Shown piece by piece: positions 4,202-24,973 of a stretch of 26,867 bases of DNA. The number at the start of each line of letters is the position of its first letter. Position 1 is the first letter of the stretch. Origin of the DNA: a virus. Where the stretch lies: the IMG/VR virus record IMGVR_UViG_3300006119_000054, positions 1 through 26,867 of that record; one strand, given 5' to 3'. Under the pieces are notes generated by a model. That model worked only from the letters and a program-made list of their open reading frames with translations. It made no database searches and was not told the DNA's origin. The position numbers and the translations under genes were made by a program.

Positions 4202-4229
4202 ATCTTACCAGAATCTATAGCCGTGTCAA
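4202..4229 (-). promoter_or_regulatory. Leftward promoter, TTGACA-N16-TAAGAT
   Basis: On the minus strand a perfect -35 (TTGACA, complement of 4224-4229) is followed after 16 bases by TAAGAT (complement of 4202-4207). Transcription would start near 4195, leaving a leader of about 40 bases with the AAAGGTGA SD before the ATPase ATG. The hexamers are identical to those of the promoter before the holin-like gene at 6925-6954. It is probably read by the host's housekeeping sigma factor. Confidence 0.72.
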
Positions 4230-4240
4230 GTCAAAAAAAG

Positions 4241-4292
4241 CCCTAAATTGCAAGGGTTCTTGCTATGTCACACCCTTTATACTAAACTAGGG
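4241..4292. repeat. CCCT/AGGG repeats around the divergent promoters (possible operator)
   Basis: CCCT (4241-4244), AGGG (4253-4256), CCCT (4273-4276) and AGGG (4289-4292) alternate through the control region. AAGGGT (4252-4257) and ACCCTT (4272-4277) form a perfect inverted repeat over the expected -35 zone of the rightward promoter, and AGGGTT is a direct repeat at 4253-4258 and 4289-4294. This is the kind of arrangement a repressor could use, but four-base cores are short and no repressor gene is visible in the window. Confidence 0.35.
4255..4283 (+). promoter_or_regulatory. Rightward early promoter, -10 TATACT
   Basis: TATACT at 4278-4283 is a near-perfect -10 box. The hexamer 17 bases upstream (4255-4260, GGTTCT) is a poor -35. 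The start would be near 4290, only about five bases before the ATG at 4295. No SD exists in that space, so the first gene of the operon is probably translated from a leaderless or very short-leader mRNA. Confidence 0.55.
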
Positions 4293-4294
4293 TT

Positions 4295-4810
4295 ATGGAA
4301 GCGATGACCAAGACCATTAGCCAAGAGGTTCTCAACGAACTTGCTCTTACGCCGGTGCTTGAGTCTGCTACGCCCAATCGCTACAAGGGCAAGTGTGCTG
4401 GTTGCGGTGCGAAAGTTGCTGAAGCCGAGGGCGCATACGCCAACGGTTCGACTTGGTGCGCCGTAGCACTCGTGAGCCGAGAGTTCGGATACATCTGCCC
4501 GAACGCCAATGGCATCATCGAGCAAGTATCAGCACAACACGAAATCAATCGGGCTCGTGAGGTTGAGGTTGCTGCGAAGAACGAGGCTATCTCTGCCGAG
4601 GCAGAAGCCCGCCGAATTGCTTACGCCGAATCTGATGAGGGTAAGGCCGAGGTTGCTGCACGCAAGGCTAAGGCCGCCGAACTCAAGAAGAACGGCCTAA
4701 AGATTTGTCGCCGTTGCGGTGGTGCTGGTGAAGCCGACAAGTGGCTTAACACAGGTCGTGTTTGCTATGGGTGCGGTGGTAGTGGATACATCACACCCGA
4801 AGTGCTATAG
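4295..4810 (+). CDS. Protein with two zinc sites, the second DnaJ-like, 171 aa
   Basis: The N-terminal third contains CAGCGAKVAEAEG with further Cys residues (TWCAVAL, YICP), suggesting a first zinc site. Residues about 75-130 are Ala/Glu/Arg-rich and look like one long helix or coiled coil. The C-terminus has CRRCGGAGEADKW and CYGCGGSGYI, two CxxCGGxG motifs as in the cysteine-rich zinc domain of DnaJ, but with no J domain. It is the first gene of the rightward operon. The ATG at 4295 has no SD; an alternative ATG at 4304 has GGAAG only two bases away, which is too close. It may be a chaperone-like or nucleic-acid-binding adaptor. The function is unknown. Confidence 0.75.
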   Translation: MEAMTKTISQEVLNELALTPVLESATPNRYKGKCAGCGAKVAEAEGAYANGSTWCAVALVSREFGYICPNANGIIEQVSAQHEINRAREVEVAAKNEAISAEAEARRIAYAESDEGKAEVAARKAKAAELKKNGLKICRRCGGAGEADKWLNTGRVCYGCGGSGYITPEVL

Positions 4811-6538: not shown

Positions 6539-6579
6539 AAGCCCGCTAGGTCTGGTGATTAGCCAAACTTAGCGGGCTT
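6539..6579. terminator. Bidirectional terminator between convergent operons
   Basis: AAGCCCGCTA (6539-6548) pairs perfectly with TAGCGGGCTT (6570-6579), with a short inner TGG/CCA pair. The plus side runs into CTTCTTGCTCTT and the minus side into TTTCTCTTTG, so both directions have a pyrimidine-rich tract. It separates the rightward early operon from the leftward late block. The rest of 6580-6613 shows nothing. Confidence 0.78.
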
Positions 6580-6613: not shown

Positions 6614-6868
6614 TTACTTCGTGATTGAGGTGGGCTTTACTGCGCCGAGGATTCGGTTAAGTGCTGGGTACTTCGCCTCAAGTGCGTGGGCCAGAGTGCT
6701 GTATCCGGTCGCTACGGCTGGGGCTACGATTGCGTAAGCCTGCGTTGGCGAGAGGTTAAAGCCAGCCTTTGCTGCTACCGATACGAGCAGACCGACCAGA
6801 GCCGGAACGACATAACGAGTGATTTCAGCAGTAATTGCCTTTGGGTCCAATGCTGGGGTTGTTGCCAT
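6614..6868 (-). CDS. Holin-like small membrane protein, 84 aa
   Basis: It has two hydrophobic segments, about residues 19-36 (YVVPALVGLLVSVAAKAG) and 44-62 (AYAIVAPAVATGYSTLAHA), joined by a short polar turn. An amphipathic basic tail ending YPALNRILGAVKPTS follows. The pattern of VVPALV...AKAG..L...AYA.VAP followed by EAKYPALNRILGA is one I associate with small putative holins of actinophages. A strong SD (AAGGAGATAATT) precedes the ATG. It has its own upstream promoter (6925-6954) and ends at the bidirectional terminator, so its timing can be set apart from the tail genes. No endolysin is seen in the window. Confidence 0.65.
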   Translation of the reverse strand: MATTPALDPKAITAEITRYVVPALVGLLVSVAAKAGFNLSPTQAYAIVAPAVATGYSTLAHALEAKYPALNRILGAVKPTSITK

Positions 6869-6924
6869 AATTATCTCCTTTTCAGAGTATCTAGAGCACC
6901 CCAGAGAAACCGAGATGCTTACTT

Positions 6925-6954
6925 ATCTTACCGATATCCGAGTATCGGTGTCAA
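6925..6954 (-). promoter_or_regulatory. Promoter TTGACA-N18-TAAGAT before the holin-like gene
   Basis: On the minus strand TTGACA (complement of 6949-6954) and TAAGAT (complement of 6925-6930) are 18 bases apart. The start would be near 6918, leaving a leader of about 50 bases with a strong SD. The same two hexamers form the promoter at 4202-4229. The spacer consists almost wholly of a palindrome, listed separately. Confidence 0.68.
6930..6949. promoter_or_regulatory. Palindrome ACCGATA-N6-TATCGGT in the promoter spacer (operator candidate)
   Basis: Two perfect 7-bp arms fill the space between the -10 and -35 of the holin-like gene's promoter and touch both elements. A dimeric regulator bound here would block or remodel the promoter. 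It could also form a hairpin in read-through RNA from the late operon, but it has no T-run for termination. Confidence 0.6.
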
Positions 6955-6958
6955 AGAT

Positions 6959-7288
6959 TTAGGAATCTATTTCGGGGGCCGAATCGCGCTTTAGGAGTTT
7001 TTCCAAACCTTTTTCAGCATCCGCCCGGTGCCACCCCAAGTGCCGTTCTACCTTGTCTTCTATGGAATCTAGGCGTAGGTCTATGCGCTCGAATTGGGTG
7101 TCGGCGCGCTCAAACTTGAGGTCAATTTGGTCAAATCGGGTGTCGTGGCGTTCCAAAATAGAGAGGATTTTTTCGCTATCGCTATGCCCCTCGGAGCGCA
7201 TTTTGTGACTAGAGTGCCAGTTTCCAATCGCAACGATAATCGTTGTGAATGCGGTTATACACGCTGCGATTACATACGGCTGGGTCAT
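6959..7288 (-). CDS. Membrane-anchored coiled-coil protein, 109 aa
   Basis: There is one N-terminal transmembrane helix (about residues 4-23, ending VAIGNW), a short basic turn (HSSHKMRSEGH), then a coiled coil with a regular repeat: RFDQIDLKFE, QFERIDLRLD and SIEDKVERH. The general design recalls XhlA-type accessory lysis proteins and many small phage membrane proteins, but XhlA has its membrane span at the other end, so I do not assign it. There is no SD before the ATG; TAAAAT lies six bases upstream, suggesting a leaderless transcript. It sits between the spike-like gene and the holin-like gene, a lysis-accessory position. Confidence 0.65.
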   Translation of the reverse strand: MTQPYVIAACITAFTTIIVAIGNWHSSHKMRSEGHSDSEKILSILERHDTRFDQIDLKFERADTQFERIDLRLDSIEDKVERHLGWHRADAEKGLEKLLKRDSAPEIDS

Positions 7289-10322: not shown

Positions 10323-13300
10323 TTAACTTCCGTAGGTGTAGCCGTAGCCGGGTGGTGCGGCTTCTACTGTATCAATCACTAGTTCACGATAGGGCTGTGT
10401 TGATGCGTAGTGCGTGACCTGAACATCAGTTTGGATAAAGACATAGCGACGCTCGGCTTCTACAGGGTCAATCAGGATTAGGGTTTCGCCTGTATTCAGC
10501 AGATTGAGGAAGTTAGGCCACTCTGCTTCGTTTTCCCAGATAACGGTGAGTTTGGAGTCACGGCCCTGAACCACACCAGCGATTGTGTATGGTCGGCTAG
10601 AACCAAGTGGGTAGAAGATACCAACAGGGTGCTTCTGCGATTCCTCAACCTTGTTCTGAACGAGGATTGGGAAGCGTAGGGTGACATCGCTAGAACTAGA
10701 AATCCACCAAGAGTTGACAGTAAGTTGGGTCGGCCCAAGCGCAGGGGTGGTCAATCCAGCCACAGGGGAAGTGGAATCGTTGTTCGTAGAGGTTGCTTGT
10801 AGGCGATAATAAATATTCTTGCTAGGTGAGCATTCATAGTCATCTACATAGCCAATGCCCGATGCTGAAATAGGTAGGTTCTTAGCCTTGCGAAGCGTAG
10901 TCCAAGTTGTTCCGTTGTCTTCGGTTCGGTCAATCTTTACGGTGTAAGAGTCGTTAGCCTCGTTGAGCCAGCCAGAGTTATTCCAAGTAATTGCGGCAAC
11001 GCGCGTTCCAATTGCTTGCGGGGTGATTACTTCGGTGGACAAACCAGCGGCGGTAGCCGAGGCAAGAGCGCCGAGAGAGTGGACATACCAAATAGGTGTG
11101 GTGAGTGGAACTGTGAGTGAGCCATCCCAATTAGCGGCGTCAATCATAACTGTCTCTTCGTTGGCGTTTCCGTAGTCAAGGGTGATTTGACCCGAATCGG
11201 CCAAGTCATCAACATTAGAAAGGTTTACGAACTTTGCACCGACAAAAGTAGGAACTGTAAGAGTTGCCGTAAAGGTTGGCAATTCAGCACCTAACTTGAT
11301 TTCACGAGTTCCCTTGTCGTTGGTGGGGTCAAGAACCCAAAGGGTGTAAGCACCATCCATAGGGGTATTGATTGGAACCGCTAGTGATGTGCCAGTTCCA
11401 ATAGTCGGGTCGCAAGGTGCTGAAATAGTTGGAATTGCACTATTCAGAATCGTGTAGTTGTTTGCCGTTCCGTCAATCGGAAGAGGTGGGGCTACGGCTT
11501 GGAACATAATGTTTGAGAGCGCGTAGATATCACCAGTGACACCTGTAGCGCCCGGGCTCACACTTGCGAGTTGGATTCGTGGACAAGCACGAGTGGCGTT
11601 GATAGAGAGAGTGGCGGTATCGCCGGGGTAGGCGGTGACTCTTGCGTAGATAGTCGTAGCACCAATGCTCGTGTCGCCAATAGTGACTACCTGAACGCCG
11701 TTGGTGGTGGTTAGGGTTGTGCCTGCTTTGATGAAGAGTGTCGTTGCTGATGGGAGAGTAAAGGTTCCCGTAGCCGTAGTTGCTAGGTCGTAGGCGAATA
11801 TTGCGTTTGTGGCTACTACTACATTTGAGGGGGCTTGGGCGATAATCGCATTGGGGTAGAAACCCTTATTGCTATCCGAGTTGGGGTCAACTGTTGGGTC
11901 TAGACCCAGAGCCCCAATTTTCACGCCCATAATCGCTGCCGTAGTGGAAACGGTGCTAGTGGTGTCGTAGTGGGTTCGACCGTCACTTGTGCCAATAAAG
12001 TTTCCTGCCTCGTCATACCAGTCAATAAACATACTGAAAGTTGGAACCGAGTAGGCGATATAGCCAGTCGAAAGTGATGCCGTAGTTGATACTGGTTGGC
12101 TCAAAGTTAGGGTGTTGCCAGAGATAGCCGTGATAGTCGTTCCTGCTGAAATGCCAGAACCACTAATAGTCATATTCGCAAGCAGACCTGCTGGGGCTGT
12201 GGTGGAGAGGGTAAAGGTTGTTCCACTCGCAGAGGTAGCGCTTAGAGAGAAGTAAGCGCCGTTGATTGATTGGATAAAGCCTGCTAATCCATACCAGCCA
12301 GAGGGTTCTACGGAAGCAGAGTTGGCGCTAGACCAAGCCAAGCCATCATAGATTCCAATTTCGGTGACTCCTGCCGTTGGACCATTTGCCGTAGTGGTAG
12401 AGGCCGATGGCTGCAAGAGAAGTGGGTTAAGGACATCCGTTCCATCTGTAAATTGAGTCGGTGCTGAAATGTGGACAGGCGTGTATTGGGGGAAGTCGGT
12501 CTTTGGCTGGAAAGTTCCAACATAGATACTTCGGCTACCTGCTGGTGTCACAGGGGCGGCAATACTTGTTGCTACAAGGTTGATAGGTGCGTGGAGAGAA
12601 ACGTGCGGAGAGAGGTTCGACGGGGCGTAGGCCGTAGCGGTTGAGGTTGGCCCTGTCGCACTTGAGGTCACGGTGAATGAGCCGGTAGTGGCAGTAGCGA
12701 CTGTAAAGTTTCCGTTAAAAGCCTGATTGTACGCCCCAACAATAGAAACTCGCTGACCACTAACAAAAGTGTTGCTTGCTGTATAAGTGACCGTTGTTCC
12801 GCTCCCACTAATAGCCGTAATATTGGCATTCCCCGGCGTGACTCCGTAGAGAACTGTGCCGGGATTCGATAGGTAGGCAATAAAACTACCGCCAGAAGTA
12901 GGGCCGTGACTCGTGATACGAGTTCCAGTCTCAATGCCATCTCCGGCAACTTCCCAGTTTTGATATTGGTTTGCTGAAATAGTGGCAGTAGTGGCGATAG
13001 TGACACTTTGGAAAGTATCTGTTCCGGCTATCGTATTTGCCGTGACCCCAGAGGTAAAGGGAATAGTATTGCCCGAACCTAACGGCCCAATCACTTGTAG
13101 CAAGTGCTCAAAGGTTGTGTAGGTATAAGTAAATTGTTGGGTGTACCCAGTTAGTTTGCTGAAACCCGGTGCGGCCGTTGCCCCAACATCAAGGTTTGCC
13201 GACTCTAGGTAGTCGCCCTCGACTAAGTGAAGACCCTTATAGTCTCCTTGACCAATAGTGTTCTTTTGGAAGTAAACGAGTTTGTATTTGGACGGTGTTT

Positions 13301-16300
13301 CCGATGTATAAACTTGGATTTCAGTTCCAGCGGGGATAATAAAAGACGAACTAGAGAGTGGGCCGGTTGATTTAGTGCCGAACTTTTGGAAAGCCCATCC
13401 GTTTCCGATTGGTCGGATATTAAAGGTCTTTTCACCATCGTTTCCGTTAGGGCCTGTTGGCCCTTGCCAATGAGAGGACAGAACGGCTGTCATTTTGCTA
13501 GAACCGTTAACAAAACGGATTTTTGTTCCTGCTGGTAGAAGTCGTGATGTTCCGACCTTTTGGTTTTTCTTTATGTTGGTGTCGAAAAGCCCCATAAATC
13601 CAGTCACGGACATTTTGATAGGAACGCTCTTTACATTTTGGTATTTGTATTTAGGCGGCGTAGTTGGGGGTAGGATTAGTTGGCGTGAGCCGTAGGTATC
13701 AGCAGTGACCTGACCAAAGGTAGTCCAGCCACCTTGTTTGATTGGTGGCATTGCGTGGACGCTATCAATAGTTGCTACTTCAGCAATATTTGAGCGAACA
13801 ACTTTGGTGGTTGCTTTTAACTTCTTCTGGGCCTTTTTGCCAGAAGTTCCACTTGCTTTTGGTTGCGGAACGGTGAAGTGGGTGTAGTGGACATTTATTT
13901 TTTTGCCCGCGCCTTGTCCGGGTGCGTAGAAAGCATTATTGGGGTCGTGGATAACGACCTTAAGTGGGTGTTCTTTGCTATTTCCCTTGTGAACAACAAA
14001 ACGGTTTTTTACAGGGGCAGAACCCTTACCAGTTGCGACAAAAGCGTAATCAGGTTTTGGTCGTGAATGCTTAGTTTTCTGTGTCCAAGACATATTTGCC
14101 GTTGAGCCGAAATAAACAGGTGCTTGAAGACCAAATGAAACGTTGTCTCCCGAAGCGTGGGCCGCTGGCGTTGTGGAAGCACCGACCGGGCCATATTGGA
14201 CAGGGAAAGCGCGCTGAAGAATCTTGTATGTTCCACTTGTTGTGGTTTGAGAAACGGTCTGAAGCAAAATGTTTTCACTTGTCTTACCAGAGATGTTTCC
14301 GCTAATAACGCCTGTGGTTGCGTCAATCGCCCCACCGATATTTACCCAAAAACTCCCAGAAATAGGTAGACCCGCACCATTGATAGTGATATTTGTTCCG
14401 GCCGTAGTGGTAGTTGCGATAGGTGTAGCAAGGGTTGCATCGGTTCCAATAGGAAGTTGGGTGTAAATCTTGGTCTTGTCTAGCGACTGCTGAATATGAG
14501 TAGATACGAGTCCAACAGATAGTTGGGTATTTGCCGTGTCGTTCGCCGTAATTGTCCAGTTGCCGATATTGCTTGGGAAATCAGCATTGGCTTCGGAAAG
14601 CAAGTTGTCGCTTGACTGAACGATTAGGCGATTGATTGCGTTTTCGCCATCGCTATAGACAGCCAACATTGGAAGTTGAGGTTGCGCTGGGTCAACTAAG
14701 AAGTGCTTGACATTCCAAGAGCCAAACCAAGATTTGTTTTGGAAAGATTTGGATACTCGAACATAGGCGTAGTAAAGGGTGTTGTCCTTAAAACCGATAG
14801 AGGAATCAATCAAAGTTTGGGTAGAGTCATCATTCCCCGATTTTGACCAAATAGGCGTAGATGTATCTGGTGAAAAACCAAGACTTTGGTAGGTGGTGTC
14901 ATCAAAGATACGGACTTCCCATCCGTTCTGTGGGTCTTCGTCAAAGTCGCTGTATTTCCAACCGATAGCGGGCGTTTCACCAGCCGAGAAAGTCACGGTA
15001 TCTGTTGGCTTGATTAGAACATCATCAACCGAGGGGGCAGACCTAAAAACAATGTGCATTCCGAGACTACGGAAAGCAACTTGCTTGCCCGGCGGAACGG
15101 CGGCCTGAATGTGCATCTGAACTCGCGAGAGAACATCGTAAGTCCACTCGACATTGTTGGGGTCGTTTCCAAACAAAGAGCCGAAGTGGGTGGTGTAGGC
15201 AACGCTTGAGTTGTTGGTGAAAGTGTCCTGCTGGGTTTCTGTCTTGTTAATAGGGTCGTAGAGTGAAAACAACTCTTTATCTAGACCGCCGTTCGCACCA
15301 AGCATTGTGTAGATAGGCTGAACCGACTGAACGCGCGCGTATCGCCATCCGAGGCCGTCATACATTTGGAATTGGTTGAGGTCGGGTCGGTAGCAAACAT
15401 CAGCAATATTTGGGCTCTGGGGCATCTGATACCAAAGAACTTGCGAGTTGATAGCGTGGTTATTCATCATCGGCGTTCCGAGGATTACCTGATAAGGGGC
15501 AGAGAATCCGTCAGCGGCTAGTGAAGACGGTGCTGAAACGGGATAAATCTTCTCTTGGAGACTTCCGGTATCAACAGATAACTCGTAAGTCTTTACGACA
15601 GTCGCATTAGCGTCGTATGCGTAGTTTGGCTGGAAAGTCTTTACGGAGATTTGCTTTGCTCGGATAGTAGACGCTTTATCCACTTCAAGGAGTTGAGTAA
15701 AGTAAACCGTGATAGTAGAAGCATTTGGGATAGTAAAAGAACCAGCCGCCACGCTAACTCCGGTTAAAGTGCTTCCCGAAATGCCGGTGTAAAACACTTC
15801 TTTCATAACCTTGTTGATGATTACGCTAAAAGCGCCATTATTGGGCCAATTAGTAGGGGCAGAAGTTAGGGCTAGGGTCGTGGGCGTTGTGCTGATACTT
15901 GTTGCCCCACTTGTAGTGGCTGTATAAGTCTCGGAAAGAACTAGGGAGTCTCCCGGTGAGAGTGGTTCGGTCAACTGAACCGAAACAATCGCACCAACGG
16001 CGTCGGTGTTGTTCGGCTGGTTAAACGCACTATTCACGACTCCGTTAGTTCCAAAGTTAGTTGGGTAAAAGTTGTAGAAAGCGTAAAACGCGCTGTAGTA
16101 GGTGTATGAACTACCGATTGTTCCGAGGCTCTGACCAGCGGCAAGCGTAATTGTAATACTTGGCGTAGTTGAGGTTGCTGAAATGCTCGCAATACTTCCA
16201 ATAACTGTGTCGGAACTAGAAGCGTAAATATTCTGGCCGATAAAAAGATTGCCGGCTAAATAACTAGCCGAACTATTAGTGATGGTTAGGGTTGTGGTGC

Positions 16301-17051
16301 TAACAACTGTCGCTACTATTCGGCTATTGGCAACATTGATACTCGTCTGCCCAGCAACGGCATTGAGTTGGGCTCCAGCGCCACCGTTTCGCACGATTAA
16401 GTCTTGGTAGAACAAGCCCTGATGGATAGTGAGGGGTGTTTTGTCAGCGATTGAGTATGGAAGTGGTGATACTGGCAGAGAACCGTAGTTTTGGCCGTTT
16501 GAGATGTCAATCCCTGTTCCCGTTAGGAAAGCGTGTGGTAATTCCAAAGAAGAGTATGAGCCCCTAGTGTCTAGGTTGGCGAGGTGAATAGGCGTTCCAA
16601 CGCCGTAAGAAGCACCAACCGCAGTGGCGAGGTTGATGGTTGCCGAGGATACACTTGCGCTAGTTGTAGCGGTCGTAGGAACGACATAGGTGATTGTGGA
16701 AGCCGTAAGGGTCGTTCCACCTATCGTGAAGTTAAAAGGCGCGGCAATAGGAAGTTGTGTGGTTGCGTTAAAGGTGATAGTGGTGTCAGTAGTGGCAACA
16801 ACTACCGAAACACGGCCGATTTCGGGCAAGGCAAAGTAGCCGGGGCTAGTGGTGGAAACCGAGTTGTTAAAAGCCGGGAAAACATCGGGGTATGAGGTGG
16901 GGAATCCGGCCCGACTTTGGACAACGATACTTTCATCGCCAGCAGAAGTGGGGGCAACGAGTTGGGTATTGATATTGGGCTGACCGTTAATGCCCGTTGT
17001 TAACCACGGCTGGTCGAAATCTAGGTAGGCGTCAGTGGTGATTGATGGCAT
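10323..17051 (-). CDS. Giant modular minor tail protein / adhesin, 2242 aa
   Basis: This is a very long Thr/Ser/Gly/Ala-rich beta protein. Visible modules: an N-terminal beta region; an FN3-like domain near residues 674-785 (NGWEVRIFDD to LYYAYVRVSKSF); a Lys-rich segment near 990-1120; four collagen-like triplets (GPTGPNGNDGEK) near 1195; a VTYTASNTFVSGQRVSI module near 1400; an ISGSGISAGTTITAI module near 1620; a second FN3-like domain near 2008-2088; and a compact C-terminal domain (about 2120-2242, with GRDSKLTVIW, EWPNFLNLLNTGETLILIDP and YRELVIDTVEA). The C-terminus resembles the end of actinophage minor tail proteins that dock on the baseplate. SD TAGAGG precedes the ATG. It probably forms side fibres or a tail-tip lattice that contacts the host. 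No enzyme motif was seen. Confidence 0.7.
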   Translation of the reverse strand: MPSITTDAYLDFDQPWLTTGINGQPNINTQLVAPTSAGDESIVVQSRAGFPTSYPDVFPAFNNSVSTTSPGYFALPEIGRVSVVVATTDTTITFNATTQLPIAAPFNFTIGGTTLTASTITYVVPTTATTSASVSSATINLATAVGASYGVGTPIHLANLDTRGSYSSLELPHAFLTGTGIDISNGQNYGSLPVSPLPYSIADKTPLTIHQGLFYQDLIVRNGGAGAQLNAVAGQTSINVANSRIVATVVSTTTLTITNSSASYLAGNLFIGQNIYASSSDTVIGSIASISATSTTPSITITLAAGQSLGTIGSSYTYYSAFYAFYNFYPTNFGTNGVVNSAFNQPNNTDAVGAIVSVQLTEPLSPGDSLVLSETYTATTSGATSISTTPTTLALTSAPTNWPNNGAFSVIINKVMKEVFYTGISGSTLTGVSVAAGSFTIPNASTITVYFTQLLEVDKASTIRAKQISVKTFQPNYAYDANATVVKTYELSVDTGSLQEKIYPVSAPSSLAADGFSAPYQVILGTPMMNNHAINSQVLWYQMPQSPNIADVCYRPDLNQFQMYDGLGWRYARVQSVQPIYTMLGANGGLDKELFSLYDPINKTETQQDTFTNNSSVAYTTHFGSLFGNDPNNVEWTYDVLSRVQMHIQAAVPPGKQVAFRSLGMHIVFRSAPSVDDVLIKPTDTVTFSAGETPAIGWKYSDFDEDPQNGWEVRIFDDTTYQSLGFSPDTSTPIWSKSGNDDSTQTLIDSSIGFKDNTLYYAYVRVSKSFQNKSWFGSWNVKHFLVDPAQPQLPMLAVYSDGENAINRLIVQSSDNLLSEANADFPSNIGNWTITANDTANTQLSVGLVSTHIQQSLDKTKIYTQLPIGTDATLATPIATTTTAGTNITINGAGLPISGSFWVNIGGAIDATTGVISGNISGKTSENILLQTVSQTTTSGTYKILQRAFPVQYGPVGASTTPAAHASGDNVSFGLQAPVYFGSTANMSWTQKTKHSRPKPDYAFVATGKGSAPVKNRFVVHKGNSKEHPLKVVIHDPNNAFYAPGQGAGKKINVHYTHFTVPQPKASGTSGKKAQKKLKATTKVVRSNIAEVATIDSVHAMPPIKQGGWTTFGQVTADTYGSRQLILPPTTPPKYKYQNVKSVPIKMSVTGFMGLFDTNIKKNQKVGTSRLLPAGTKIRFVNGSSKMTAVLSSHWQGPTGPNGNDGEKTFNIRPIGNGWAFQKFGTKSTGPLSSSSFIIPAGTEIQVYTSETPSKYKLVYFQKNTIGQGDYKGLHLVEGDYLESANLDVGATAAPGFSKLTGYTQQFTYTYTTFEHLLQVIGPLGSGNTIPFTSGVTANTIAGTDTFQSVTIATTATISANQYQNWEVAGDGIETGTRITSHGPTSGGSFIAYLSNPGTVLYGVTPGNANITAISGSGTTVTYTASNTFVSGQRVSIVGAYNQAFNGNFTVATATTGSFTVTSSATGPTSTATAYAPSNLSPHVSLHAPINLVATSIAAPVTPAGSRSIYVGTFQPKTDFPQYTPVHISAPTQFTDGTDVLNPLLLQPSASTTTANGPTAGVTEIGIYDGLAWSSANSASVEPSGWYGLAGFIQSINGAYFSLSATSASGTTFTLSTTAPAGLLANMTISGSGISAGTTITAISGNTLTLSQPVSTTASLSTGYIAYSVPTFSMFIDWYDEAGNFIGTSDGRTHYDTTSTVSTTAAIMGVKIGALGLDPTVDPNSDSNKGFYPNAIIAQAPSNVVVATNAIFAYDLATTATGTFTLPSATTLFIKAGTTLTTTNGVQVVTIGDTSIGATTIYARVTAYPGDTATLSINATRACPRIQLASVSPGATGVTGDIYALSNIMFQAVAPPLPIDGTANNYTILNSAIPTISAPCDPTIGTGTSLAVPINTPMDGAYTLWVLDPTNDKGTREIKLGAELPTFTATLTVPTFVGAKFVNLSNVDDLADSGQITLDYGNANEETVMIDAANWDGSLTVPLTTPIWYVHSLGALASATAAGLSTEVITPQAIGTRVAAITWNNSGWLNEANDSYTVKIDRTEDNGTTWTTLRKAKNLPISASGIGYVDDYECSPSKNIYYRLQATSTNNDSTSPVAGLTTPALGPTQLTVNSWWISSSSDVTLRFPILVQNKVEESQKHPVGIFYPLGSSRPYTIAGVVQGRDSKLTVIWENEAEWPNFLNLLNTGETLILIDPVEAERRYVFIQTDVQVTHYASTQPYRELVIDTVEAAPPGYGYTYGS

Positions 17052-17059
17052 AGGGTCCT

Positions 17060-20000
17060 CTAGATATTCTGCGCTATCAATGCCGTAGATGATGTCGCAC
17101 TAGTTGTAGTGCTTGTATCTGGCGAGCCAATAACAGGGGTATCCGCACCGTGGTCGTTCGTTAGCGGATTGGTGTAGCAAAGGATATTTGGGGTGAAAAT
17201 AGGCTCACCGGCGTAGTGGTCGAATCGGAAAGTGTTGCCGGGAACCAAATCCCAAACGATAGGAACATTGTTTAGCGAGCCATCCACGCCGACATACGAG
17301 CCCGAAAGCAAAACGGATTCTTGGGTCTTGCCCGTTCCAATAATCGCCACGCTCACATCGTTGGCGATATCAGCAGTTAGGTTCATAATATTGCTCGAAA
17401 ATGTGATATTCTCGACTCCACTAATAGTGGCGTTGTTAGAGATAGAGATTATTCCAGCAGTGGGTAGCCCGGTAGATGCGACTACATAAGGTGCAACGAC
17501 AGAAGTGACTACAGAACCGCTAGGGATTCCCGTTCCCTGAACCAACATACCTACGATTACGCCCGTGACTGACCCATAGGTGTTCGCGCCAGCCAAAGTC
17601 GCAAGTTGGTTGCCTCCGCTAGAGAGCGTGAGGTTTAGGGATACCGAGGTTTGGGCCGGTGCTGGGCTTGCGATAAACGAAGTCGAGACTCCACCCATCA
17701 AATCTGAATAGAGACTTGAGGTGTAGCGAGAACCGATTTGGTCTGCGTTAAGGGCTTCCAAATCAGCAGCCGTATTCGACCCAATCCAACGCTTTCCGAG
17801 GATGTAAGAGCCGACTGTAGTTCCGGCTAAGTGAACGCCACCGATAGTTCCGTTCTGTAGTGAGACTACGCCGCTACCCGTTCCATCGTAGTTTGCTGCT
17901 GAAAGCGAAGAGCCGAGTGGGATAGTCCAAGCAAGGTAGAAAGGATTGGTGTTTCCATTGGCAAGCGTTGGCGACTGCTCGACTTCCCATAGATAGATGT
18001 AGTTCTGACTATCACCGTTGTAATAGGCGTTTTGTGCTGGTGCGTAGTTATCTAAGGAAGAGTTGTTGATGTAGAAAGAGTTGGTGCTATCTGTTGGGAT
18101 ACCAGTCACCTGCCAATACGGCGTTGGCCCTGAAGTCAAAACACTAGTATTCCAGCGCGCACCCTCGCCACGGAAAGTTAGGTAAAGGCTCTTGCCACTA
18201 TTAGTCGCTTGGGTATAGAGGCTAGAGATAGTGGAGTTGTTATCGCAGGTCACTAACGCCGGTGCTGATATGACGGTGGCGGTCCAAGTCGTGTTAGTCG
18301 TGCTAATAGGATTACTTACATAACCTATTAAAGCCGTGGTGTCGACATAGGTGAGGTAGCAAGTGCTAGATGTGACCCCAGCGCCAGACAAGAGAAGTAC
18401 GCCCGTGCCAGAAATCATATTGCTTAGAGTTTGTGCGTCTGATGAGGATAGGTTTATCAACTCATAGCCAGTGACTGGTTGGCCGTGGCGGTCGATAATC
18501 GTATTGGCATAACCTGTTGCTTGGAAACTAAACGGTGAGGTGATACCCGTAGTACTCACTAGCGAAATGCTTACGAACGAGGCTACCGGCGTTGAGCGAT
18601 AAGTATCAATCGTTCCGGTGAAAATAAGGTTTTTTAGATATGGATAGAACCATATGTTTGAGCCTGTGCTTCCATAGAAACCATTTGTTTCATCTCCAAG
18701 CGAAACCATATTGGCTGTTCCTGTTAGTGCGCTCGGCGTTGTTGTGGATGTCGTGGCAACGACAAAGTTGGTGCTAGTAGTGGAGACAATCTGGTAAATA
18801 CCCGCATATGGGGAACCAGATATATTTACAGAAACCGTTTGACCCGCCTTAAAAGAGTTGGTGGCGTTAAAGGTGAGTTGTCCGCCCGAATAGGTGACAC
18901 TAGTGATGTTCGCTTTCGTTCCGATAGAGTTCGCACCTAGAGGTGATGGGTCAATAGAGGAATAGTAAGGGGGTGTTGGGCCTAAGACTACGGAGTAGGT
19001 GTTATTTCCCGGTGTGGTGACTATGCCCTTGTAGCGTTGGTCGCTGTCCGAGAGCATAATGACATCTCCCGCCGACACGGTTTCCGATGGGCCAGTACCA
19101 GAATAGGAAAGGGGCTGTGCGAGGGTTGAGTTTGTAGCAATAACAAACGAAGTAGGTGAATTGACTGCGGAGATTTCGCTAGAGAGGATTTGCGCTCCCA
19201 AACCAGAGTTCGTGGCACTAAGCACATAAACATTTTGATTTACGGTAGCCGTGATAGGTGCGGTGACTGTTCCGGCGACTGTTGGTGCGCCGACCGTTGA
19301 GGTGAAAGTAAAGGTTAGGGCAGAGGTGTTGATAGCCGTAATCGTGTTAGTTCCCTGAAGCGTTGCCGTTCCAGCACTAAGGGTCGCACCTACCTGTGGT
19401 GGCTGACCCGTGTAAGTTCCCATTAGCGAGCCAGCAGAGACATTGAGGGTTGATGACCTAGTGGCCCAAGAAGATACGATAGTGGTTGCCGACGAAGTGG
19501 TTGACACAACAACGGAGCCGACCGTTCCAATAGCCAAGTCTGCTGAAACGCTAGAAGCAAAGATAGGTGTGTAAACAGTTAGCGTTGAGGTAGTGCTTAC
19601 GGTCGCCGTTGTGTTGATAACAAGGTTGCCCTGCGTTGCCGTAGTAGCCGTTCCGACTACAGAAGCAAAGTAGTTTTGGATAGTTCCCACCGTGTTAAAG
19701 AACGATGCTGAAACCTTGTTGCCGCCCATAATCGTTCCTACGGGCTCGTAGGTTTCCAAAGTAGAAGCCGTTGCTACAACGGTGTTGCTACCAGAGGTGG
19801 CAGTGACAGAGAAAGTCGCCGTGAGGTTTAACCAGTTTGCCACTATTGGGTTTTGGAAAGAAAGGGTTGTGTAAGTTCCCGAAATAGGCAAAGTTGCGGT
19901 CGTGCTAGTGACCCCACTAATAAGACCTAAGTAGTCGCCCTTGGCATCAAAAACTATTTGGCCGGGTTGCCACGAGCCGACTAGTGGTGTGTTCCCATTG

Positions 20001-20629
20001 AGGCCGCTATTAAAGACCGTGATTTGCGTTGAGGTTGTGGAAACCACATAGTCGTATGTCCAATCGGGAACGATTCCCGTGATTTCAGCAGTAGGCGTTC
20101 CGCCCGAACAAGTAAAGTAAAGGCCTTGATTCATTTCGTTTCCCACATTGTATGGAGAAGAAATAACGGAAGAGTTTGTAAAGTTTGCATTGGTAATTGA
20201 CTGCGTGATAGGGATTTGACCGGCCGAACCCACAGTTCCCCACTCTGAATAAAAAGCAGGGGAGTTTTGCTGACTATCGCCTTCCAAAACAATCACTTCC
20301 TGTGTGGGGGCGAATCCGCTTGTGTCGTTGACATAGATAAAGCCATCGCCGGTGTAGGTGTAGTTCTTGGCCGCCGAATACCAAGCACTACTTGGCACAT
20401 AGGCGTATGGGGCTACTTGCGTATCTTGCGAAAGGCTTGTAAGGCTTGTAAAGAGTTTGGTGAGGTTATCTACGTGGACTTGGTAGATATTGGTATCAGC
20501 AGTTCTGATTGCAGTGCAACTAAGGCGAGTTGTGTCGTTTTGTGCCGTTGCCCCATCGGGCGCGCCATTAATTACCCAATATCTAGGGTCAATATTTGCT
20601 GAAGTCGGAGTGGCGGTCAGAGTCTTCAT
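17060..20629 (-). CDS. Large modular tail protein, 1189 aa
   Basis: It lies directly after the tape measure, where a distal tail protein would be expected, but it is several times longer than usual. The N-terminus has an alpha/beta part (ANIDPRYWVING, NIYQVHVDNLTKLFTSLTSL, SGFAPTQEVIVLEGD) that could be the docking domain. A long Thr/Ser-rich beta region follows, with several Ig-like or adhesin modules, including LTFNATNSFKAGQTVSVNI near residue 580 and VGMLVQGTGIPSGSVVTSV near 1020. Both have counterparts in the 2242-aa protein. Near 970-990 is GSRYTSSLYSDLMGGVSTSF, and the C-terminus is a Thr/Ser tail. The SD is weak (AGGGT). It is probably a Dit-like ring protein expanded with carbohydrate- or surface-binding modules; the exact role is not clear. 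Confidence 0.65.
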   Translation of the reverse strand: MKTLTATPTSANIDPRYWVINGAPDGATAQNDTTRLSCTAIRTADTNIYQVHVDNLTKLFTSLTSLSQDTQVAPYAYVPSSAWYSAAKNYTYTGDGFIYVNDTSGFAPTQEVIVLEGDSQQNSPAFYSEWGTVGSAGQIPITQSITNANFTNSSVISSPYNVGNEMNQGLYFTCSGGTPTAEITGIVPDWTYDYVVSTTSTQITVFNSGLNGNTPLVGSWQPGQIVFDAKGDYLGLISGVTSTTATLPISGTYTTLSFQNPIVANWLNLTATFSVTATSGSNTVVATASTLETYEPVGTIMGGNKVSASFFNTVGTIQNYFASVVGTATTATQGNLVINTTATVSTTSTLTVYTPIFASSVSADLAIGTVGSVVVSTTSSATTIVSSWATRSSTLNVSAGSLMGTYTGQPPQVGATLSAGTATLQGTNTITAINTSALTFTFTSTVGAPTVAGTVTAPITATVNQNVYVLSATNSGLGAQILSSEISAVNSPTSFVIATNSTLAQPLSYSGTGPSETVSAGDVIMLSDSDQRYKGIVTTPGNNTYSVVLGPTPPYYSSIDPSPLGANSIGTKANITSVTYSGGQLTFNATNSFKAGQTVSVNISGSPYAGIYQIVSTTSTNFVVATTSTTTPSALTGTANMVSLGDETNGFYGSTGSNIWFYPYLKNLIFTGTIDTYRSTPVASFVSISLVSTTGITSPFSFQATGYANTIIDRHGQPVTGYELINLSSSDAQTLSNMISGTGVLLLSGAGVTSSTCYLTYVDTTALIGYVSNPISTTNTTWTATVISAPALVTCDNNSTISSLYTQATNSGKSLYLTFRGEGARWNTSVLTSGPTPYWQVTGIPTDSTNSFYINNSSLDNYAPAQNAYYNGDSQNYIYLWEVEQSPTLANGNTNPFYLAWTIPLGSSLSAANYDGTGSGVVSLQNGTIGGVHLAGTTVGSYILGKRWIGSNTAADLEALNADQIGSRYTSSLYSDLMGGVSTSFIASPAPAQTSVSLNLTLSSGGNQLATLAGANTYGSVTGVIVGMLVQGTGIPSGSVVTSVVAPYVVASTGLPTAGIISISNNATISGVENITFSSNIMNLTADIANDVSVAIIGTGKTQESVLLSGSYVGVDGSLNNVPIVWDLVPGNTFRFDHYAGEPIFTPNILCYTNPLTNDHGADTPVIGSPDTSTTTSATSSTALIAQNI

Positions 20630-24241: not shown

Positions 24242-24973
24242 CTAGAGTGTAGTGCGGAATACAGGGCCAGTCACCTGTAATTCGCCATCAAATGTCACAA
24301 CAGCACCAACGGCACTCTTGAGGTCATACTTGGTCAAAACGCCAGTTCCGTAGTACTTGGTGTCGCCAGTCAAACCGGTAAATCCACCGGGGGTTGCTGG
24401 GCCATAAACGAAGTTTCCGATACGGCCAGAGTCCTGCCAAGAAGAAAGACCGTTCATAATTGCGTCAATTCCACCTGCGTAGCCGGTGTTAACGGCAGTC
24501 TCGTCGAACATACCCGAAAAGGTAAGAGTCCAAGACTTCAGACCCACGATGTAGGTCTTCACGCCGTACTGCGAGAAAGTCGTGGTTTCTTGGGCCTCGA
24601 TAGCGTATGGCAACGAGACATCGTTGATGAACTCCGAGATGTTAATCATTGGAACCATTGGGGTAGCGACCGAAGTGGTAGCCACGTTGCCCGAAGAAAC
24701 GGTCATTGAGGTTGTGCTTAGGGCCGTTCCGTAAACAGGAACACCACCGAAGAACGCACCGTAAACCGAGTTTCCGGCCCCTGCGTAAGTCATTGGGTTG
24801 TTCTGCGTAAGCAACGAGCCAGTTCCAGCACCAGAGATGGTGAGCGAAGTGGTCGTGGTTGCCGTAGCGGTTGCTTGAACCAAAGAACCAGCAGTCAAAC
24901 CGAGGTCATAACCGAGAGCAAGAAACGCATTCTTACCGTGCTGGAAAGTTGGAGTAGTTGTTGAAGTAGCCAT
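24242..24973 (-). CDS. Major tail tube protein, paralogue 2, 243 aa
   Basis: It begins MATSTTTPTFQHGKNAFLAL and contains ISEFINDVSLPYAIEAQETT, then FSQYGVKTYIVGLKSWTLTF and an end region LQVTGPVFRT. The same sequence of motifs occurs in the neighbouring 324-aa gene. This pattern of a near-invariant ETTTF followed by G-x-K-x-Y/F-I-x-G-L-K is typical of actinophage tail tube proteins. Residues about 25-110 hold a Thr-rich beta insertion. Its place right before the chaperone gene is that of the tube protein in siphophages. SD AGGAAAGG lies about ten bases upstream of the ATG. The shorter of the two paralogues is the better candidate for the polymerising tube subunit. Confidence 0.75.
   Translation of the reverse strand: MATSTTTPTFQHGKNAFLALGYDLGLTAGSLVQATATATTTTSLTISGAGTGSLLTQNNPMTYAGAGNSVYGAFFGGVPVYGTALSTTSMTVSSGNVATTSVATPMVPMINISEFINDVSLPYAIEAQETTTFSQYGVKTYIVGLKSWTLTFSGMFDETAVNTGYAGGIDAIMNGLSSWQDSGRIGNFVYGPATPGGFTGLTGDTKYYGTGVLTKYDLKSAVGAVVTFDGELQVTGPVFRTTL

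Follow-up and report, generated by a model that had tools for sequence, protein, structure and literature searches.

The locus described here raises the question whether the last gene of a leftward phage operon has a promoter of its own, and whether the palindrome in the spacer of that promoter is an operator. The window, i.e., the whole stretch of DNA that was analyzed, is an entire virus record (G000) of 26,867 bases. Its leftward genes comprise tail genes, with matches to tail, tape measure and major tail proteins, followed by the genes of a 109-aa protein and of a holin-like 84-aa protein, and the rightward genes finish with a Gam-like protein. The coordinates of the features are listed in Table 1.

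According to the first-pass annotation, TTGACA-N18-TAAGAT is located just upstream of the holin-like gene and its spacer consists almost entirely of ACCGATA-N6-TATCGGT. Both statements hold. The hexamers were recovered by sequence reading and by a promoter scan (10 of 12 matches), and the palindrome, which reads ACCGATA-CTCGGA-TATCGGT with 0 mismatches, shares one base with each hexamer and has the same centre as the spacer. The distance between the hexamers lies within the 16–18 bp of a sigma-A promoter, and a dyad overlapping the promoter, as a repressor-controlled sigma-A promoter would need, is present as a putative operator. The annotation had further proposed that the holin-like gene is transcribed from this site, which is plausible because the gene is the last of its operon; lysis timed apart from the tail operon, as it also suggested, would be a hypothetical consequence. 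A perfect TTGACA is combined with a −10 element of the TANNNT type at sigma-70 spacing, in an intergenic position and in the correct orientation; a Shine–Dalgarno-like site and the gene start follow at a fitting distance, the latter 56 nt from the 3′ end of TAAGAT; and the same pair of hexamers is found before the Sak4-like gene of this phage. Judging from the positions of the hexamers, transcription would start at about 6918–6919. Two other roles of the palindrome were rejected. The sequence is single-copy in the record at up to two mismatches, which rules out a recurrent phage operator, and a T run is missing 3′ of it on both strands, which rules out an intrinsic terminator.

Table 1. Features of the holin-like gene region and of related sites in the window.
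Feature	Position	Strand	Remarks
−35-like hexamer TTGACA	6949..6954	-	Sequence and scan; kept in G001, G002, G003 and G004
Palindrome ACCGATA-N6-TATCGGT, proposed operator	6930..6949	.	Midpoint shared with the 18-base spacer; G004 has one different arm base, at position 6936
−10-like hexamer TAAGAT	6925..6930	-	Scan; kept in G001–G004
90-nt intergenic region, lineage-private	6869..6958	-	Missing from the 20 remaining loci of the holin family, with gene overlap established for 16 of these
9-bp stem-loop GCATCTCGG-N5-CTGGGGTGC	6896..6918	-	Fold −15.5 kcal/mol for 6918–6868, z −2.67
Shine–Dalgarno-like AAGGAG	6875..6880	-	Sequence reading
Holin-like small membrane protein of 84 aa; phrog_10742 (function unassigned)	6614..6868	-	Last gene of the leftward operon
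109-aa protein	6959..7288	-	One N-terminal hydrophobic stretch; likely coiled coil (by eye)
Long inverted repeat between convergent operons, likely two-way terminator	6539..6579	.	−30.7 and −34.3 kcal/mol
Second promoter-like site TTGACA-N16-TAAGAT, before the Sak4-like gene	4202..4229	-	Identical hexamers, without palindrome

The term holin-like is used as a description only. Over 19 residues, the hydropathy of the 84-aa protein reaches 1.79 in a strong and 1.12 in a weak hydrophobic stretch, so that small size and a membrane span are present as in phage holins, but a match to a known holin family is lacking. No Pfam match was obtained at E values up to 1, and the single matching PHROG has no assigned function. 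An endolysin was not recognised among the proteins scanned, which leave out the three largest or structural ones at 10323–17051, 17060–20629 and 24242–24973. Moreover, a collection of named phages yielded no relative of the holin-like protein, of the 109-aa upstream protein or of the leader DNA.

To what extent the element is conserved was followed in relatives gathered by an exact palindrome scan and by searches with the two small proteins. Retention of the palindrome in relatives, on which the first-pass annotation had made its proposal depend, was found within the species but not beyond it. G001, G002 and G003, three near-identical records that belong to the same species, have the 30-base element unchanged; in G004, both hexamers are intact and one of the seven arm pairs is broken. 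In G004, the same leader extends as far as the Shine–Dalgarno site, after which comes a holin-like allele at 41% identity, so a near-constant leader stands before two different alleles. Across the 90-nt region, G003 has a single change and G004 has one in the palindrome and three beside the start codon. As the records of the lineage are too alike here, this conservation is nearly uninformative on selection.

A wider census was made by a profile search built on ten holin-like proteins, which gave 24 loci, several of them near-copies that do not count as independent. The four loci of the lineage have an intergenic gap of 90 or 91 nt. In relatives, the end of the 109-aa gene overlaps the start of the holin-like gene: at 15 of the 20 loci outside the lineage, the overlap with the upstream gene measures 29 to 62 nt, and a 16th overlapping locus (L172) was read by translation, as the motif used to locate the upstream stop missed five of the 24 (L172, L173, L174, L175 and L177). 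At none of these 20 loci do the 130 nt 5′ of the start contain a promoter-like site or a 7-bp inverted repeat, and the promoter-like site therefore arrives together with the intergenic region. Among the loci compared, this region is private to one lineage. Its absence from the other 20 implies a gain specific to the lineage or, as the less simple alternative, that all the others have lost it, and insertion is its putative origin. The palindrome itself was also considered as a widespread virus motif. The exact scan of viral_contigs returned 111 stretches, but among the loci whose context was checked a perfect TTGACA adjoins it only in this lineage and in L001, and the motif was rejected in that role. 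A looser pattern that also requires AAGAT returned six stretches, of which four belong to the lineage and two (L049 and L136) are without TTGACA.

From these elements, we tentatively favor a sigma-A-type promoter that serves a single-gene unit and has the operator of a repressor in its spacer. The promoter would lie in the 90-nt region separating two genes that overlap in relatives, and would direct transcription of the holin-like gene alone, ending at the terminator-like repeat at 6539–6579 (z about −6 on both strands). A dimeric DNA-binding protein would use the palindrome as its operator; this protein, whose gene would belong to the host or to a part of the phage genome that was not sequenced, would most likely act as a repressor and block RNA polymerase. 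At its 5′ end, the transcript would have a stem-loop able to protect that end: the 9-bp stem-loop would sit at the extreme 5′ end of an RNA begun at about 6918–6919, and only 3 of 200 shuffles match the fold energy of 6918–6868.

Promoters with an operator in the spacer are common. In repressible promoters of the TetR or lambda type, the dyad bound by the dimer lies between −35 and −10, and repressor and polymerase compete. The present layout is an ordinary and plausible kind of gene switch; as in those promoters, the dyad lies between −35 and −10, here as a single site for a putative binding protein. Phage repressors often use several operators, whereas here there is one copy. Narrow literature searches found no repressor/operator promoter 5′ of a holin gene and, for holin genes with their own promoter, a sole match that concerns biofilm and rare tRNAs. 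Among phage systems, the available text on Cluster O mycobacteriophages describes 17-bp dyads with a 3-bp centre that occur genome-wide, with 34 copies in Corndog (PMC4351075). The palindrome resembles these in having 7-bp inverted arms in a putative actinobacteriophage, but occurs once, has a 6-bp centre and lies within a promoter spacer. The stoperators of Cluster A mycobacteriophages, as far as the available text describes them, are phage repressor sites that are sometimes linked to promoters, as proposed here; they are asymmetric and numerous, whereas the site described here is symmetric and single (PMC9283540).

The strongest rival is a plain, unregulated sigma-A-type promoter in whose spacer the palindrome is a coincidence, which we regard as a real but lesser possibility. 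Neither a promoter-like site alone nor an inverted repeat alone is unusual against chance. The first 20,000 positions hold 13 promoter-like sites versus 16.5 expected, sites with at least 10 of 12 matches number three versus a shuffle mean of 4.2, and inverted repeats with arms of at least 7 and gaps of up to 10 number 16 versus 13.4 on average over 20 shuffles. A coincidental palindrome would also agree with its single copy and with the arm pair broken in G004, which argues against an operator. On the other hand, the palindrome is exactly centred and fills the spacer. A promoter-like site with a perfect 7-bp inverted repeat at mid-spacer arose in 17 of 400 shuffles at a threshold of at least 9 of 12 matches and in 1 of 400 at a threshold of at least 10 of 12; as this joint test was run post hoc, when the feature had already been pointed out, its result is moderate evidence.

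The searches for a regulator, empty above cut-off, are in line with a plain promoter as well. In the 15 related records, window included, all of them incomplete, no match was found for MerR_1 (PF13411), HTH_3 or HTH_17, and TetR_N gave none above cut-off but two weak matches below it, both outside the lineage. As a control, each family was detected in 11 to 14 of 14 control genomes. It is possible that the regulator is encoded by the host. A contig of Methylobacterium gossipiicola (L138, to which the L001 sequence is identical) carries TTGACA, ACCGATA-N6-TATCGGT and TA in the same arrangement at an intergenic position, with an HTH/S24 repressor gene about 500 bp away. By our own estimate from the base count, about 0.5 such matches are expected by chance, so this arrangement is a lead only and may have arisen by chance. 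The promoter region in this contig (L138:4990–5044) has several adjacent ACCG...CGGT dyads and lies near the HTH/S24 repressor gene and a YdaS-type gene.

Rather improbable is a second alternative, in which the site is no promoter and the palindrome works as an RNA element. As a hairpin in the long late transcript it would, together with a second stem-loop, govern processing or stability and thereby set the expression of the last gene apart. The palindrome can indeed form a 7-bp RNA hairpin (−7.7 kcal/mol) 9 nt past the upstream stop codon, the 9-bp hairpin follows downstream, and the gene pair is without overlap in this lineage. However, the leader as a whole folds with an energy only 1.9 s.d. 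from that of shuffles, and an RNA role leaves the intact TTGACA and TAAGAT unaccounted for. No known RNA family and no tRNA was found at the locus. The leader has a 10-mer, TATCCGAGTA, in common with the end of the Gam-like gene, which was judged to be chance.

The first-pass annotation had compared the spacer to promoters that need a twisting activator of the MerR type, which would bind the palindrome and untwist an overlong spacer. The palindrome does lie midway between the hexamers, as it does in MerR-family promoters, which are sigma-A/sigma-70 promoters with a palindrome at mid-spacer, but the spacer of those promoters measures 19–20 bp according to the available text of the sources (PMC8113463; PMC1526738). 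With a spacer of 18 bp here and no MerR gene found in the 15 incomplete records, the MerR reading is rejected as very unlikely, although the host may encode a MerR protein. Equally remote is a functionless promoter-like string, since the number of such sites in the first 20 kb fits chance but the perfect −35, the intergenic position, the right orientation and a leader kept before two different downstream alleles do not.

The favored promoter with a spacer operator, if active, would illustrate on a small natural scale how a phage puts a probable lysis gene that was firmly coupled to its neighbor under separate control; otherwise, what is left is an ordinary promoter whose operator is a possibility. 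A more far-reaching scenario, which we consider doubtful as a whole, would be that the last two genes of the late operon were translationally coupled until a short insertion separated them and thereby provided the probable lysis gene with a repressible promoter and a 5′-protecting leader. A host regulator would then set the time of lysis, and the leader would have persisted through a later exchange of the lysis gene.

Some further observations concern other parts of the window. The promoter-like site of the Sak4-like gene has GG before its −10, as is the case at the holin-like gene. The Sak4-like protein has 407 matching records, and as the best 20 of these 407 are all Mycobacterium phages, an actinobacterial host is hinted at. 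At 4275–4298, TATACT directly precedes the ATG at 4295, and the transcript of the rightward operon would thus be nearly leaderless. The gene at 4295–4810 is strongly diverged from G003 (window positions of about 4300–4800) between nearly identical flanks, resembling a gene exchange.

Promoter spacers in larger relatives contain motifs as well. In G013 and G007, ACTAAACCCC recurs in either orientation between TTGAC and TANNNT, perhaps as an operator of these phages or as part of their promoters. Of the 19 promoter-like sites in G013, 5 contain it at up to two mismatches, versus 0 of 15 reversed-pattern controls; at up to three mismatches, it is present in 8 of the 14 sites in G007 versus 0 of 8 controls. 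Examples are 9901 (minus), 92064 (plus) and 106631 (minus) in G013 (L146–L151) and 56686 (plus) in G007 (L142–L145). The motif is not in excess in G010. In G011 and G012, several promoter-like matches carry GGGTTGTG after TTGAC, which by eye looks as if the spacer motif were phage-specific.
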